This document shows, piece after piece, positions 15,344-23,489 of a stretch of DNA of 64,000 nt. A program made the position numbers and the translations under genes. The DNA is taken from the NCBI GenBank assembly GCA_000955795.1, contig JYOB01000010.1, positions 542,590 through 606,589 on the forward strand, written 5' to 3'. The stretch is from Burkholderiaceae bacterium 26. Its GTDB lineage: Bacteria > Pseudomonadota > Gammaproteobacteria > Burkholderiales > Burkholderiaceae. A model generated the notes under the pieces. That model was not told the origin of the DNA, did not search any database, and saw only the letters and a program-made list of their open reading frames with translations. Each line of letters opens with the position of its first letter. The first letter of the stretch is position 1.

Positions 15344-16318
15344 TCAGCGCTGGGCGGGCAGCATCGGCTTGTTGAGCATGCGCGACAGGACAGCTTCGGG
15401 CGAATGGGTGCGATCGGCAATGGCCGCCGGATCAAGGTAGAACGTCTGTTCCATCATCGCGCGGCCGCGCATTGCCGCATGCAGCGCCTGATCGCTGAAG
15501 ACCACCCACGTCGCACCCGGAGCGAATTCGAACGTCTGTTGCGGTGCCCCGCGCTGATAGACCAGGTCGGCCTTCGCGAGATCGTGCAGCTGCAGCATGC
15601 GGTGGTCGTATTCGGAGCGTAGGCGCTTGGTGATATGCAGCTTGTGCATCAGCCACGATTGTCCCGGGAGCATCCCACGCGTTTTCTGCACAAACCGCTG
15701 GGCGAAGTCGGCAAAGGGTTCGCCGATGCGCCAGACGCGCGAGGCATTCGGATCGACATTGTGGAACACACGCAAGAGGCGCTGGCCGTGCAGCGGGTTC
15801 GACGGGAATGCGTCGACGTGCAGACGCGCGTCGTCCTTGCGCCAACTGACCGGCCGCCCGGCAATCTCGGCCGGCCGCAACGACGTGCCGGCTCGCTTCA
15901 AATGCGGGGCGTAGTCGGAAAAGAGCGTCAGCACGAGGCGCTCGGCAGCATCGGCGTAACGCCGGATCAGGGTAGCGAGATCGCGCAGGTCGGCAGACTG
16001 CCCGACGGCACCGCGCACGTGGGATTCATTGGCGCGCAGGTTGATGTTCTTCGTCTTGCCGTCAGACCAGCGTGCGTCGAGAAAGCGCTGCTCCCGGGCA
16101 TCAAGTGGGAAGTCGAGCCCTGGAAAATGCAGCACATTGCCGCGCTCCAGCGCAGACCGCATGGCAGCCGCCTCATCAGACGTCACCACGGGTGACCATT
16201 CACGCACCGGCCACGGCACCACCATGTCGATGGCAGGCGGCGCAGCGACGGCTCGCTGTCCCGAATAGTGGTTGTGCGTCGGCGGCGTGGCGGGCGCAAA
16301 CCCTTGCATACTTCCCAT
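15344..16318 (-). CDS. kdoO: Kdo hydroxylase (Fe(II)/2-oxoglutarate dioxygenase)
   Basis: 324 residues. The sequence fits the Kdo-hydroxylase family, which hydroxylates C3 of the outer Kdo sugar of lipid A-core to make Ko in Burkholderia, Ralstonia and Yersinia. The iron site is suggested by the HxD in ARLHVDAFPSNP, with a distal His in DQALHAAMRG, and FHNVDPNASRVWRIG lies between. There is no signal peptide, in line with action at the inner face of the inner membrane. Start choices are 16318 (MGSMQGF) or 16309 (the second Met). The assignment rests on remembered family motifs. Confidence 0.8.
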   Translation of the reverse strand: MGSMQGFAPATPPTHNHYSGQRAVAAPPAIDMVVPWPVREWSPVVTSDEAAAMRSALERGNVLHFPGLDFPLDAREQRFLDARWSDGKTKNINLRANESHVRGAVGQSADLRDLATLIRRYADAAERLVLTLFSDYAPHLKRAGTSLRPAEIAGRPVSWRKDDARLHVDAFPSNPLHGQRLLRVFHNVDPNASRVWRIGEPFADFAQRFVQKTRGMLPGQSWLMHKLHITKRLRSEYDHRMLQLHDLAKADLVYQRGAPQQTFEFAPGATWVVFSDQALHAAMRGRAMMEQTFYLDPAAIADRTHSPEAVLSRMLNKPMLPAQR

Positions 16319-17849: not shown

Positions 17850-19724
17850 ATGACGCAGCCTCAAGACGGCAGCGGCGCTATTGCGCACGCTGAAACCAGC
17901 AACACCAATACCGAAAACCTCATCGCCGAAGCCGCGACCCGTGCTAGCGCCTTTGCTGCACTGGGCTTGGACGAACGCATCGTCCGCGCGCTGGGCGAAG
18001 TGAACTACATCACCCCGACGCCGGTTCAAGCGCAAGCCATTCCGGCCTGCCTGTCGGGCCGCGACCTGCTGGTCACGAGCCAAACCGGCTCGGGCAAGAC
18101 CGCCGCCTTCATCCTGCCGGCCATCCAGCGCATCAGCGAGCAGCCTGAGCCGCAGCGTCCGCGCATGGACGGCCCGCCGCAACGCATGAAGGGCCGCCGC
18201 CCCCGCCCGGCACCGGCCAAGCCGTCGCTGCTGGTGCTCACGCCCACGCGCGAACTGGCCCTGCAAGTGACTACCGCCACCGCACAATACGGTCGCCATC
18301 TGCGCCGCATCGTCTGCGCGAGCATCCTGGGCGGCATGCCCTACCCGAAGCAGCTGGACATGCTGGCACGCATGCCGGACATCATCATCGCCACGCCTGG
18401 CCGCCTGCTCGACCACATCGACTCAGGCCGCATCGATCTGTCGGCGCTCGACATGCTCGTCTTTGACGAAGCCGACCGCATGCTGGACATGGGCTTCTCG
18501 GATGACATCGAAGCCATCGTCGGCGCCACGCCGGCCACGCGCCAAATGCTGATGTTCTCGGCAACGATGGACCGCCGCATCGAGCAACTGGCCGAGCGCA
18601 TGATGCGCGAGCCGCAGCGTATCGAAATCGCCGCCACGAAGATCGACCAAAGCAACATCGAAGAGCGCCTGCACTTCACCGACGACATGTCGCACAAGCA
18701 GCAACTGCTGGATCACCTGCTGCGCGACGCGTCGCTCAAGCAAGCCATCGTCTTCACGGCGACCAAGCGTGATGCTGACTCACTGGCCGAGCGCCTGACC
18801 GAGCACGGTTTCTCCGCCGGCGCCTTGCATGGCGACATGCACCAGGGCGCGCGTAACCGTACGCTGACGGCACTGCGCCGCGGTCAGTTGCGCGTGCTGG
18901 TGGCCACCGACGTGGCAGCTCGCGGCATTGACGTGCCGGACATCACGCACGTGGTCAACTTCGACCTGCCCAAGCAAGCTGAAGACTACGTGCACCGCAT
19001 CGGCCGTACGGGCCGTGCTGGCCGCAGCGGGATCGCCATTAACCTGGTGAACCACAACGACACGTTCCAATGGCGCCGTATCGAGCGCTTCGTTGATCGA
19101 CGCATCGACGCATCGGTTGTTGAGGGCCTGGAGCCGAAGCGCTCGGCCAAGCCCCGCACTGGTGGCCCGCGCGCCGGCGGCGACCGTGGCGGCTACCGAG
19201 GAAACGGTGGTAATGGCGGCGGTTATCGCGGCCAGCGTGAAGGCTACGGCGCACGCCAAGGCGGCAACGGTGGCAATAGCGGCAACAACGAAGGCCGCTT
19301 CCAACGCAGCTTCGGCGGCGACCGCGACGGCTTTGCTCCGCGCCGCGATGATCGCAACGGCAACGGAAACAGCAACAGCAACAGCGGCGGCTACCAAGGG
19401 GCCCAACGCGAATGGAACCGCGACGACCGCGCCCCGCGTCCGTCGTATGGCCAAGGCCAGCAAAACCGTGGCGACTGGCAACAACGCCCCGCGCGCACGC
19501 AAGGCACGCAAGACGGCAACCGTAGCTACGGCAACGGCGCGGGCACCAGCAACGGTGGCGGCTATGGCAATCGCGATGGCAACCGGGAAGGCGCCCCGCG
19601 TCGCTTCGGCGACAACAACGGCGCCAGCCGCTTCGGCGACGGTGGCAACGGCGCGCAGCGTCGCAGCTATGGCAACCGCGACAGCTACGGCAGCAAGGGC
19701 CGTTCGCGCGACTTCGATCGTTGA
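17850..19724 (+). CDS. rhlE: ATP-dependent DEAD-box RNA helicase
   Basis: 624 residues. The Q motif is near 52-60 (ITPTPVQ), Walker A TGSGKT at 79-84, PTREL at 132-136, TPGR at 182-185, DEAD near 206-209, SAT at 237-239, the ARGID motif at 357-361 and HRIGRTGR at 382-389. The core is followed by a tail of about 195 residues (430-624) made almost only of Gly, Asn, Arg, Ser, Tyr and Asp with RGG-like repeats. This is a disordered RNA-binding tail such as those that promote condensates. It fits RhlE/CsdA-type helicases in ribosome assembly and RNA decay. A long leader suggests post-transcriptional control. Confidence 0.93.
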   Translation: MTQPQDGSGAIAHAETSNTNTENLIAEAATRASAFAALGLDERIVRALGEVNYITPTPVQAQAIPACLSGRDLLVTSQTGSGKTAAFILPAIQRISEQPEPQRPRMDGPPQRMKGRRPRPAPAKPSLLVLTPTRELALQVTTATAQYGRHLRRIVCASILGGMPYPKQLDMLARMPDIIIATPGRLLDHIDSGRIDLSALDMLVFDEADRMLDMGFSDDIEAIVGATPATRQMLMFSATMDRRIEQLAERMMREPQRIEIAATKIDQSNIEERLHFTDDMSHKQQLLDHLLRDASLKQAIVFTATKRDADSLAERLTEHGFSAGALHGDMHQGARNRTLTALRRGQLRVLVATDVAARGIDVPDITHVVNFDLPKQAEDYVHRIGRTGRAGRSGIAINLVNHNDTFQWRRIERFVDRRIDASVVEGLEPKRSAKPRTGGPRAGGDRGGYRGNGGNGGGYRGQREGYGARQGGNGGNSGNNEGRFQRSFGGDRDGFAPRRDDRNGNGNSNSNSGGYQGAQREWNRDDRAPRPSYGQGQQNRGDWQQRPARTQGTQDGNRSYGNGAGTSNGGGYGNRDGNREGAPRRFGDNNGASRFGDGGNGAQRRSYGNRDSYGSKGRSRDFDR

Positions 19725-19770
19725 TCGATGAGGGGTCATCTTTTCCGGATGGCCCTAGCAGACAGCCAAC

Positions 19771-19804
19771 AAAAAACCCCACGTTTAACAGCGTGGGGTT
19801 TTTT
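19771..19804. terminator. Bidirectional terminator between rhlE and the EgtB-like gene
   Basis: A very strong stem, AAAAAACCCCACG (19771-19783) / CGTGGGGTTTTTT (19792-19804), with an 8-nt loop. It has T-runs on both strands and serves the two convergent genes. Confidence 0.92.
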
Positions 19805-19867
19805 GCTTCTTGGGCAACGCCGGTCAATCGCGGCTCGACTTGCCGGTCCCGCCCCAAAAGGCTTCCA

Positions 19868-21166
19868 TCACAGCGCGCAGGTTCGGAAGCCGACAAAGAC
19901 GTCATCACGCTCCGGCAGCAGAAAGCCCCGGAAACGCGGGTGACGGGTGCGTTGCGGCGTATGTGCGGCAGCGCCCCGCACCGCCTGCATCGTCATGAAA
20001 TGCGGCGCCGACAGGCTCGCCACACGACCGCGCGGCATGCCCGGTACAAAATCCGGATACGGCTCGAACGGCGACGACGTCCACTCCCACACCTGCCCCC
20101 AATGAAAGCCGGCCCTGCCCTGCACCGCAGCCATCTCCCATTCGTCTTCGGTCGGTAAGCGACGGCCGGCCCAGCGGCACCACGCCTGGGCTTCGTACAG
20201 GCTTACATGGCGCACGGCTTCATCCCGGTTGATCGTACGCGCTTGACCGTAGCGCAGTGCCTGCCAGGTACGCGTGGCGGGATCGCGCTGCCAACCCAGC
20301 GGCGCCGAACGCTCCTGCATCATCAGCCACTCCATGCCGGCCGGCGACCACCACTGCGGATTATCGTAACCACGGTCTTCGATGAACTCGAGGTATTGGC
20401 CATTCGTGACCGGCTGCGCATCGATCTCGAACGCGGGCACATACGTGCGGTACGGCGGACACTCGTTGTCGAAGAAGAAGCCATCGGCATCGGGCCAGCC
20501 CATCTGGAAACGGCCGCCGGACAACGCCAATGTCTGGGCAGCCGGCACGGCCACGGCAGCCAGCGGTGGCTGTCCAGCGGGTTGCAGGCCCAGTACCTGC
20601 AGCAGACCGTGCAGATGTTCGGCGCGCAGGTCTTCGTGGAATACCGCCCAGCGGAACGGCTCCAGCGACGCATCGTCATCGGTGCCGAGCGTGGCCAGCT
20701 TACGCAGCACGCGGTCGAGCACGTCATGCGCGTACTGCTTGATCGCGGCAATGCCGGGCAGCGTCAGGTCCCAGCATGCCTCTGGCGGCATGCGATCCAT
20801 GTCGAAGAACGTATCGGCACCGTCAAGCGCGGCGGGCAGCGTAGCCTGCCAAAGTGCAAGGTCCCACTCCGTGCCGGCGCCGTCTTCGATGGTGTCGCTG
20901 CCATTGCGACGCGGCTCGCGCAGACACCAGAACTCGGCAAACCAGGCCAACTGGCCCAGGGTCCAGAGCGGCGGGGCGTGATGTTCCACGCGTTCAGTCT
21001 GCCAGCCGCGCTGCGTATCGCCAAACGCCGACAACAACGCCAGCGTGCGATTGCGCGCATCGACCAGGCTATGCGCGATGCCTTGGCGAGGCAGGCGGCG
21101 GCCGTCGGTCCAGTCGGGAAGCGATCCGATGAAGGTCGGATCGGGGAGCATGAAGAATTCAGCCAT
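19868..21166 (-). CDS. EgtB/SenA-like nonheme-iron oxidoreductase family protein with altered metal site
   Basis: 432 residues. It has an N-terminal DinB-like helical domain (about 28-195) and a C-terminal FGE-sulfatase/SUMF1 domain (about 212-432, with PVTNGQYLEFI, LPTEDEWEMAA and RDDVFVGFRTCAL). This is the architecture of EgtB sulfoxide synthases and the related SenA enzymes. The expected iron ligands are one His in the W-x-L-G-H motif and two in H-E-x-x-H. Here the motifs read WTLGQ (Gln72) and HEDLR (His177 kept, Arg181 in place of His). Each change could come from one base. It is 67 bp after egtD, with GAGGTTTGCCGCG before the ATG. Either the enzyme is degenerate or it uses another metal site. 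Confidence 0.85.
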   Translation of the reverse strand: MAEFFMLPDPTFIGSLPDWTDGRRLPRQGIAHSLVDARNRTLALLSAFGDTQRGWQTERVEHHAPPLWTLGQLAWFAEFWCLREPRRNGSDTIEDGAGTEWDLALWQATLPAALDGADTFFDMDRMPPEACWDLTLPGIAAIKQYAHDVLDRVLRKLATLGTDDDASLEPFRWAVFHEDLRAEHLHGLLQVLGLQPAGQPPLAAVAVPAAQTLALSGGRFQMGWPDADGFFFDNECPPYRTYVPAFEIDAQPVTNGQYLEFIEDRGYDNPQWWSPAGMEWLMMQERSAPLGWQRDPATRTWQALRYGQARTINRDEAVRHVSLYEAQAWCRWAGRRLPTEDEWEMAAVQGRAGFHWGQVWEWTSSPFEPYPDFVPGMPRGRVASLSAPHFMTMQAVRGAAAHTPQRTRHPRFRGFLLPERDDVFVGFRTCAL

Positions 21167-21233
21167 CGCGGCAAACCTCGGGCGGGAATCGGTCCATTAT
21201 CGCACCGGCCTGCCTGGCGTTCTGCCGCCTCGC

Positions 21234-22280
21234 CTACCTGCCTACGCTCGCGTGGCAGACGGCAAAGTCGCCACCGACATCAGTCCAGGCATGCAGGTCT
21301 TCGAAACCGGCATCGGCAAACATCGCTTGCAGACTCGGCAGATCGTATTTGACGGAGTTCTCGGTGTGCACGCGTTCGCCGGCGGCGAAGGTACGCGCGC
21401 GCTTGCCCCATTGCACCGTTACATCGCGTAGTGCTTCCAGGTGCATCTCAACGCGGTGCGCCTCCGGGCGGTACAGCGCGACATGGCGCCAATCCCGCAC
21501 GTCGAAATTTGCGCCCAGGAGGCGATTCAGGTTGCGCAGCACGTTCAGGTTGAACGCTGCCGTCACGCCGAGCGGATCGTCGTAAGCGGCCTCGAGGCGT
21601 TGGGCGTCTTTGATGAGGTCGATACCGATCAGCACGCTGTCGCCAGGCGCGGAAGCCTCGTGCAGGCGTGAGAGAAATGCCCTCGCCTCTTCCGGCGTGA
21701 AGTTGCCCAGGCTCGAACCAGGATAGAACCACACGCGGCGCCCATCGCCCACGGCATCGGGCAACACCAGCGGTGCACATAGATCGGCGCCGATGCCGAC
21801 CATCGGCAATTGGGGATGCTGACGCGCAAGTCCACGCAGCGTATCGCGTAGAAAATCCGCCGAGATGTCGATCGCCACATAACGCGACGGCGCGAGCGTG
21901 CGGAACAGGCGTGCGGCCTTCTCGCAATTGCCGGCCCCCAGGTCGATCAACGTGGCGCCGCGACCCACGCGCATCGCGATCTCGGCCGCGTGCAGGCTGA
22001 AGATGGCGGCTTCGGTGCGCGTCGGGTAGTACTCGGGCAAGTCGGTAATCGCTTCGAACAGACGCGAGCCGAGGGCATCGTAGAAGAACTTCGGGCTGAT
22101 ATTGGCCGCGGGTGAAAGCAGGCCAGCCTCCGCTTCGGCACGCAGGGCAGCATCATCTTCCGTAAAGAGCTGGTAGAAAGTCAGGCCCGCGCCAATGGCG
22201 TCGACCGTGGGCTGGGGCTGGATCAGACGAGCCAGCGCGCGGCGGGCATAGGTATCGGCGGACGGCTTGGTGGCCTGCAT
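21234..22280 (-). CDS. egtD: L-histidine N-alpha-trimethyltransferase (hercynine synthesis)
   Basis: 348 residues from the ATG at 22280, chosen because GGGAGACACC lies just before it. The opening to 22355 adds 25 unlikely residues. EgtD family features are ISPKFFYDALGSRLFEAIT near residue 60, the SAM-binding LIDLGAGNCEKAARL, the Rossmann-side YVAIDIS, and VWFYPGSSLGNFTPEEA. It converts histidine to hercynine, the first step to ergothioneine. It is the first gene of an egtD-egtB-like operon, with no egtA, egtC or egtE gene in the window. Confidence 0.92.
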   Translation of the reverse strand: MQATKPSADTYARRALARLIQPQPTVDAIGAGLTFYQLFTEDDAALRAEAEAGLLSPAANISPKFFYDALGSRLFEAITDLPEYYPTRTEAAIFSLHAAEIAMRVGRGATLIDLGAGNCEKAARLFRTLAPSRYVAIDISADFLRDTLRGLARQHPQLPMVGIGADLCAPLVLPDAVGDGRRVWFYPGSSLGNFTPEEARAFLSRLHEASAPGDSVLIGIDLIKDAQRLEAAYDDPLGVTAAFNLNVLRNLNRLLGANFDVRDWRHVALYRPEAHRVEMHLEALRDVTVQWGKRARTFAAGERVHTENSVKYDLPSLQAMFADAGFEDLHAWTDVGGDFAVCHASVGR

Positions 22281-22567
22281 GGTGTCTCCCGTCGTGGGTG
22301 GAACGGCACGGTGCTGCATGGTCATGACGGCCATTGACAGCGAGAAATGTGCCATCGCGTCTATGCCATCACCGCACGCCTATGGCGCGCGGATGAAATT
22401 GCAGCGTAGACGCCGCTTTGTGACAGCGCCACCGTTCTTTCGCCGGAGGCTGTCACAACGCGGCATCGCGCTAATCGTAAAAATCACCCGCACCGCTGAA
22501 AAAATCACGCACACCGTGCTGCTAGGCCAACGTTGCGTTCTTGCAGCGCACAATCCCCTCGCTGCGA
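22281..22567. other. Divergent promoter region, egtD and the riboswitch-controlled exporter
   Basis: 287 bp without a gene. It carries the upstream signals of egtD (minus) and of the TATAAT-led transcript (plus). I see no further conserved element. Confidence 0.5.
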
Positions 22568-22573
22568 TATAAT
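22568..22573 (+). promoter_or_regulatory. -10 element of the riboswitch transcript
   Basis: A perfect TATAAT followed by GCGGGC. The only -35-like hexamer, TTGCAG at 22541-22546, is 21 bp away, which is too far for a standard promoter. Confidence 0.6.
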
Positions 22574-22583
22574 GCGGGCTTCC

Positions 22584-22712
22584 TCAAAGGGGAGTAGCTC
22601 GGGGGTTCTTCAGCCCCAGGCACGATCGTCATGACGAAGCCCACGCTTCCGGTCGTGCCGGCACCAGCAGGTTCCCAACCTGTTCGTGTCGAGCAAGACC
22701 TTTGCAACCGGA
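22584..22712 (+). ncRNA. yybP-ykoY manganese riboswitch
   Basis: The leader carries the conserved AAAGGGGAGTAGC of this class (22586-22598). A middle helix with CGTCATGACG follows, then the 3' conserved GAGCAAGACCTTTGC (22691-22705), matching the alx/mntP-type aptamers that bind Mn2+. The segment CTTTGCA (22700-22706) can also pair with TGCAAAG (22723-22729) beyond the aptamer, a plausible expression platform. It sits upstream of a TerC-family gene, the usual partner. The identification is by eye from consensus memory. Confidence 0.88.
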
Positions 22713-22796
22713 TTTCATGGTCTGCAAAGCGTCTCGCCCCAGCACTCCATGCAGTTCGGTCAATCGATTTTTATTGTTGTTTGACTTGGAGTCACC

Positions 22797-23489
22797 ATGG
22801 AATGGTTGTCTGACATCTTCACCATGCAGTTTGCCGCCGCGCTGGCGTCGATCATCGTGATCGACCTCGTGCTTGCGGGCGATAACGCCATCCTCATCGC
22901 GCTGGCAGCGCGCAACCTGCCGCCCGAGTTGCAGAAGAAGGCCATCATGTGGGGCGCCGCGGGCGCCATCATTGTGCGTGCGCTAATGACGCTGGCGGTG
23001 GTATGGCTGCTGAAGATTCCGGGCCTGATGCTGGTGGGCGGTCTGGCGCTGGTGTGGATCGCGTGGAAGCTTCTGGCTGACGACGGCCAAAGCGGCGATG
23101 AACACGGCACAGGCAGCACCACGCTGATAGGCGCCATGAAGACCATCATCATCGCCGATGCGGTGATGGGCATCGACAACGTGCTCGCCATTGCCGGCGC
23201 ATCCCACGGCAGCTTCCTTCTGGTGGTACTGGGCCTGCTGATCAGCGTGCCGGTCGTGGTGTGGGGTAGCGGCGTGGTACTGCGCCTGATCGAACGCTTT
23301 CCGGTCATCATCTACGGCGGCGCTGCTGTGCTGGCTTATACGGCCGCGCACATGATCGTGGCCGAACCGGTTCTCAAGGCGTTCTTTGCTGCACAGCCGC
23401 TGCTTAAGTGGGCAGTGTATGTGGTGGTGTTCGTGGTCGTACTGGGCGGCGGTTGGTTGGTCCAACGTCGCCGCCAACAACCCGCCTAA
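22797..23489 (+). CDS. TerC/YjbE-family membrane protein, probable Mn2+ exporter
   Basis: 230 residues with about seven hydrophobic segments. The two paired acidic motifs of the TerC family are clear: IDLVLAGDNAILIA near residue 25 and ADAVMGIDNVLAIAG near residue 120, each with the Asp-Asn that lines the metal path. TTGGAGTCACC precedes the ATG. Manganese export is supported by the yybP-ykoY riboswitch directly upstream. The last bases overlap the convergent dehydratase gene by 3 bp. Confidence 0.9.
   Translation: MEWLSDIFTMQFAAALASIIVIDLVLAGDNAILIALAARNLPPELQKKAIMWGAAGAIIVRALMTLAVVWLLKIPGLMLVGGLALVWIAWKLLADDGQSGDEHGTGSTTLIGAMKTIIIADAVMGIDNVLAIAGASHGSFLLVVLGLLISVPVVVWGSGVVLRLIERFPVIIYGGAAVLAYTAAHMIVAEPVLKAFFAAQPLLKWAVYVVVFVVVLGGGWLVQRRRQQPA

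Follow-up and report, generated by a model that had tools for sequence, protein, structure and literature searches.

What does a protein of the SenA/EgtB type do when two of the three histidines expected to bind its iron are absent? The question is raised by a minus-strand gene at positions 19868..21166 of the window (the whole stretch of DNA that was analysed, 64,000 nucleotides), whose 432 aa product is classified by its open reading frame, its score against NF041186, PDB matches and trees as a SenA-derived DinB-FGE protein and is given here the short name EgtX. Our explanation is an old pseudoenzyme that descends from SenA and is kept by selection, probably acting as a non-catalytic partner in the synthesis of hercynine and ergothioneine; to this explanation as a whole we assign a probability of about 0.58. 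Its first part, that EgtX descends from SenA, has lost the classical site and is under purifying selection, is highly probable from the sequences compared. A search of open-access papers found no description of EgtX.

The gene starts with ATG; it is open and has a ribosome binding site (GAGG, read from the letters nine bases 5’ of the ATG), as the original prediction, which gave no strand, had stated. The predicted two-domain architecture probably holds: FGE-sulfatase scores 111 bits (Pfam cut-off 23.3) and DinB_2 23.2 bits, slightly below its cut-off of 24.8. Upstream on the same strand, with 67 bases between its stop and the egtX start, lies egtD for histidine N-alpha-methyltransferase (21234..22355, minus strand), the sole egtD match in the window’s genome (G000; 5.68 Mb, 44 contigs); it is intact, as had been claimed, scoring 378.5 bits against TIGR03438 (cut-off 290.9). 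A DEAD-box RNA helicase gene (17850..19724, plus strand), which marks the ancestral sen locus, lies tail to tail with egtX. Scans for promoter and terminator patterns found none in positions 19650-22850. Elsewhere in the window, positions 15344-16318 of the minus strand hold a Kdo hydroxylase gene (Pfam PF11004, 358 bits).

The two metal-site motifs of EgtX are PPLWTLGQ, with Gln72, and VFHEDLRAEHLHG, with His177 and Arg181. Gln72 (codon at 20951..20953, minus strand) stands at the first His ligand place (H51 of MthEgtB), His177 (20636..20638, minus strand) at the retained place (H134), and Arg181 (20624..20626, minus strand) at the third place (H138). In an alignment of 99 proteins, all 33 comparators of the intact SenA-like kind and all ten EgtB comparators carried the three-His set, whereas the window and 12 further Ralstonia rows read Q-H-R; the solved SenA sequences 8k5i and 8ryz have LWELGH and HEAMH at these motifs. 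The claims that the family carries three histidines and that EgtX lacks two of them and keeps His177 are thus borne out against all 43 intact comparators, and the codons confirm that a single base separates either changed codon from one for His. Gln72 is present at 16 of 16 Ralstonia loci, and His177 and Arg181 at all 15 that are long enough. All three places show synonymous codon turnover in Ralstonia (CAA/CAG, CAC/CAT and CGC/CGT), which rules out a sequencing error at the odd codons of these loci.

The profile scores of EgtX are 392.4 bits for SenA (NF041186, below the cut-off of 420), 230.3 bits for EgtB (TIGR03440, below the cut-off of 360) and 64 bits for the EgtB-X signature (cut-off 71). 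The SenA cut-off is no test of function, since a protein with Arg at the third ligand place (L171) passes it with 478 bits. Among PDB sequences EgtX is best matched by two SenA chains, 8k5i and 8ryz, with E about 1e-64. In the trees, the proteins of Ralstonia, of a second genus of the same family (g3, probably Cupriavidus, a name inferred by us) and of the isolate PBA form one EgtX clade (support 100/100) on the SenA side, split from EgtB with 100/100. Its sister group consists of six intact SenA-like proteins (92/92 in the careful tree, where the branch is not starred; SH-aLRT 95 in the quick tree).

The neighbourhoods point in the same direction. Four of the six sister loci have senB and senC adjoining senA, the proteins of two of them (L165 and L166) having been checked against NCBIfam, and in two sisters (L166 and L170) a helicase gene meets senA tail to tail. 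Compared with the window’s helicase, that of L166 reaches 549 bits, against 354 bits for the next best protein in G000; in turn, the best match of the window’s helicase in G642 and G353 is the gene adjoining senA (reciprocal best hits), while the remaining four sister genomes have their best helicase match elsewhere. The shared reciprocal-best neighbour suggests that EgtX is SenA at its apparent old address. By tree and position, then, EgtX is on sequence grounds the orthologue of SenA and not of EgtB; EgtB orthology is ruled out by the tree, the profile scores and the synteny. The original term “EgtB-like” holds for the common fold family, but the protein groups with SenA and is its positional orthologue. 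As with many EgtB genes, egtD is a neighbour, but unlike EgtB (TIGR03440; MthEgtB 4x8b/4x8e) the protein scores 230 bits against a cut-off of 360 and lies on the opposite side of a 100/100 branch, and the genome has its own EgtB.

With SenA, EgtX shares a probable two-domain DinB-FGE organization, a sister position in the tree and, in two of six sister genomes, the helicase neighbour, as well as the residues R83, D118, W132, E178, E183, W332, W362, R413 and R428. It differs from SenA in falling below the family cut-off, in a locus without senB, in an N-terminal motif of its own, and in the loss of two of three iron ligands, of the Tyr377 column, Tyr385 and Asn414, and of other SenA-invariant residues. 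Using tblastn, neither senB nor senC was found in the EgtX loci listed (for example, L033, L043, L073 and L074). SenB scores over its cut-off in 20 of 299 family genomes, in 0 of 16 Ralstonia and in five of 39 g3 genomes, and in those five it adjoins a second, intact SenA.

The association with egtD is general: egtD lies upstream of egtX on the same strand at 56 of 56 loci, one per genome, the median distance between the aligned ends being 139 bases (range 68-546), and the order helicase-egtX-egtD-terC was found in Ralstonia, in PBA and at the g3 loci with enough flank. The window’s EgtD is 51-58% identical to EgtDs near SenA-like genes and 38-50% identical to EgtDs adjoining EgtB genes, with one exception of 56% (L129). 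Adjacency to egtD alone is no proof of an interaction between EgtX and EgtD. At two loci the egtD adjoining egtX looks irregular, appearing in two pieces in G295 (L056) and having a TGA within the match in G270 (L048/L074).

The second, complete EgtB that the original prediction had proposed to look for is encoded on another contig: a three-His protein on contig 10 of G000 (L004:5477-7138, minus strand). In the family survey all 56 EgtX genomes match EgtB with an E-value of 5e-181 or less. Across Ralstonia the EgtB open frames range from 448 to 920 aa, and three rows carry a TGA towards the N-terminal end of the match, so that the annotated EgtB start may be unreliable.

The loss is not confined to the ligands, and in this respect the original prediction understated it. 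The 33 SenA-like rows have 86 columns with at least 90% conservation; Ralstonia departs from these at 22, in part by conservative changes, and g3 departs or is variable at 30. Leu385 (codon at 20012..20014, minus strand) and Gly414 (19925..19927, minus strand) stand where all 33 SenA-like and all ten EgtB rows have Tyr and Asn, respectively. Pro378 (20033..20035, minus strand) replaces a Tyr found in 33 of 33 intact SenA-like rows; this column aligns with Tyr377 of MthEgtB, the chain index and the published numbering being offset by one residue. A review describes MthEgtB Tyr377 as critical for C-S bond formation (PMC10903977). The same column is Val in seven of the ten EgtB comparators, so Tyr at this place is a feature of SenA and MthEgtB and not a universal one.

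At the ligand places themselves, g3 is far less uniform than Ralstonia. The first 39 g3 copies have the triads HHQ (27), NYQ (three), HHY (two), HHH (two), and YLQ, HLQ, AYQ, SYQ and NFQ (one each); 11 further copies have HHQ (eight), YQQ, HQE and HLQ. Hence 35 of 50 g3 copies combine His72 and His177 with Gln181, and 13 of 50 lack His72, His177 or both; the triad of PBA is NRE. Fifty-one of the 53 EgtX rows lack the third histidine. The g3 copies L111 (G230) and L113 (G236), which have all three, are nested among HHQ rows and are one base away from them at the third-ligand place; even so, L111 has changed residues at the Tyr and Asn columns.

The 35 copies with His72 and His177 and the two with HHH indicate that a metal site may survive in some of these proteins, and this is the starting point of the strongest competing explanation, a remodelled enzyme acting on hercynine or a relative of it, with iron held by two histidines (plus Gln) in most g3 and with another metal set or none in Ralstonia. 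In a study of engineered MthEgtB (PMC13426267), one variant remained partly active with H138A, H138D or H138E, in line with such an enzyme, while replacement of H51 or H134 abolished its activity and lowered its iron content; in a second variant, changes of H138 nearly abolished fluorination, which speaks against the idea, and H138A kept azidation. The fixation of Q72, H177 and R181 in Ralstonia despite codon turnover would also suit a remodelled site. However, Ralstonia and PBA lack the equivalent of H51, some g3 copies lack one or both of the first two histidines, and the Tyr377 column and columns 385 and 414 are lost throughout the clade and vary in g3. We regard a remodelled enzyme as unlikely. 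Its fuller version, in which EgtX with a two-His (Gln) iron site in most g3 and a differently liganded or metal-free site in Ralstonia would, together with EgtD, make a new hercynine-derived compound or control the ergothioneine/selenoneine branch, seems quite unlikely.

A metal-free binder or sensor of a small molecule (hercynine, ergothioneine or a selenosugar) would be in keeping with a hercynine-using ancestor, the egtD neighbour and the conserved fold, and the variability of the old pocket bears on it in two ways. In g3, the SenA-invariant pocket columns 378, 385, 386, 388, 414 and 422 rank with the most variable positions of the protein (entropy percentiles of 97, 92 and 95 for columns 378, 385 and 414), unlike what is expected of a kept ligand site; the iron-ligand columns 72, 177 and 181 stand at percentiles 73, 75 and 63. 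The active-site columns are outliers in this respect, as the 52 nearly SenA-invariant columns have a mean g3 entropy of 0.435 versus 0.564 elsewhere. Of the 19 pocket columns that were lost, 18 show variation in g3, a count that is partly circular since the columns were picked as lost in EgtX. In the much less diverged Ralstonia, only two of the 19 (378 and 388) vary, compared with 72 of 432 positions overall; the changed pocket is conserved there like the remainder of the protein, which would fit a new pocket function too. Given the drift in g3 and a Pfam search of EgtX that found neither a DNA-binding nor another output domain, a binder or sensor appears unlikely.

Could the gene be a relic drifting to loss, with no remaining role? 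Decay of the active site would be expected of one, and three g3 genomes seem to hold a damaged copy: the gene is in two pieces in G697, has two internal stops in G699 and gives a partial match in G687. On the other hand, all 16 Ralstonia genomes carry egtX, 14 of them at full length and two as copies truncated to residues 1-247 and 1-143, and a match is present in 59 of 60 g3 genomes, the sixtieth genome being 54% complete; full-length g3 copies are 52-59% identical to the window’s EgtX. A search of a plasmid collection gave one distant match only, in Hydrogenophaga (31%).

We determined dN/dS by a simple pairwise Nei-Gojobori count over coding positions and compared medians. In 13 Ralstonia, egtX has a ratio of 0.038 against 0.076 in egtD; a set of eight named Ralstonia gives 0.034 for egtX, 0.051 for the helicase core, 0.074 for terC, 0.075 for egtD and 0.142 for PALP; and in two g3 groups the ratio is 0.081 for egtX versus 0.099 for egtD, and 0.106 versus 0.159, respectively. 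A rougher count, which took in upstream in-frame bases, gave 0.044 for egtX and 0.101 for egtD in Ralstonia, 0.196 versus 0.178 in one g3 group, and 0.115 for EgtB, the only value available for that gene. Judged by these ratios, egtX is under purifying selection. With egtX at 0.04 in Ralstonia and near 0.1 in g3, below egtD in all three groups of the coding-position count, the ratios are not what would be expected of a relic, and we consider a relic very unlikely. The recent loss of function that the original prediction had offered as one of two options is rejected as well: Q-H-R is present at every Ralstonia locus reaching these residues, the EgtX proteins form one clade with 100/100 support, and the third histidine is absent from all of it save the two nested g3 rows.

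An active selenoxide/sulfoxide synthase with iron on replacement ligands such as His184 and His186, the pair suggested at the outset, is extremely improbable, because both residues, although fixed at the 15 of 15 Ralstonia loci reaching them, are not conserved across the clade (most g3 rows have G, T, R or A at position 184 and PBA has G there, and neither residue belongs to the columns kept in at least 52 of 53 EgtX rows), while no Ralstonia genome has SenB over its cut-off and a three-His EgtB is already present. As a clade-wide site the pair is rejected. A search of the 160 columns conserved in at least 52 of 53 EgtX rows found no new clade-wide His/Cys metal set; the conserved His and Cys residues are H320, H409, C330 and C430, which are usual in SenA too, and C81, which is specific to EgtX.

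The part of EgtX that is new is its N-terminus. Residues 1-27 (21086..21166, minus strand) follow the pattern M[SA].F.MLPD[LP].F.G....W.D.R.[LM]PR, which is matched strictly by 50 of 53 EgtX rows; two rows differ slightly, and L076 lacks the pattern in frame. MLPD near the N-terminus occurs in none of the 46 non-EgtX rows.

Loss of the iron site, together with near-universal retention, in the Ralstonia and related genomes searched, next to the first gene of ergothioneine synthesis, suggests a new and probably non-catalytic job, that of the SenA-derived pseudoenzyme named above. A role as a partner is favoured because most of the protein stays conserved along with the new terminal motif, whereas the former pocket has been drifting in g3. 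The second option of the original prediction, a repurposed protein, is supported by conservation, synteny and the clade-specific N-terminal motif; that it acts on hercynine, as was also suggested, may be so. That the partner is EgtD or an EgtD-EgtB pair is our tentative proposal, somewhat short of an even chance.

In the proposed history, a SenA orthologue would have turned into a pseudoenzyme in the ancestor shared by Ralstonia, g3 and PBA; compared with the sister loci, senB and senC are missing and egtD is found upstream. The simplest course would be that the third iron ligand was lost on the stem and that His returned there once within g3. Changes at the other two ligands, at the Tyr377 column and at more of the SenA-invariant columns would have come later, lineage by lineage, and the remaining protein with its new N-terminal motif would have been kept under selection. 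EgtX may be made together with EgtD and bind EgtD or the EgtD-EgtB pair, thereby stabilising or controlling the production of hercynine or its transfer to the EgtB encoded elsewhere. Inactive paralogues that regulate active partners in other pathways offer an analogy. SUMF2 (pFGE), an FGE paralogue regarded as catalytically inactive, partners an active pathway. Its structure (PDB 1y4j_A) is among the matches of EgtX and shares the FGE fold; it is eukaryotic, single-domain and part of another pathway, unlike EgtX, so the comparison is an analogy only.

If this explanation is right, ergothioneine synthesis in two bacterial genera has an unrecognised non-catalytic component, which family models place near SenA/EgtB and which in Ralstonia is more tightly constrained than egtD; a selenium pathway would have been dismantled while one of its enzymes was retained for another purpose. 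The triads HHQ, HHY, HLQ, NYQ, QHR, NRE and others also provide a natural series in which a three-His iron site is lost step by step.

A second case is provided by three degenerate SenA-like proteins of family f49, L138, L140 and L150. Like EgtX, they are SenA-derived, have Arg instead of the third His (two of three) and have lost the Tyr377 and Asn414 columns (three of three; column 378 is Gln, Trp and Trp, and column 414 is His, Ala and Gly, respectively). Unlike EgtX, they form a separate clade (100/100), and all three keep His72 and His177. With EgtX counted, such residue loss in SenA-derived copies has thus occurred at least twice. Within the stretches examined, no egtD was found near these degenerate genes, and Pfam scans of ten neighbours of f49 copies revealed no common partner. 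The f49 loci L171, L172 and L173 (genomes G555, G612 and G638) show this same pattern, and G555, which holds L138, carries a sen cluster with egtD too (L175).

The small genomes (about 2 Mb) of another genus, g13 (for example, G132, G047 and G298), often have SenB directly adjoining egtD, and ten g13 genomes have SenB over its cut-off.
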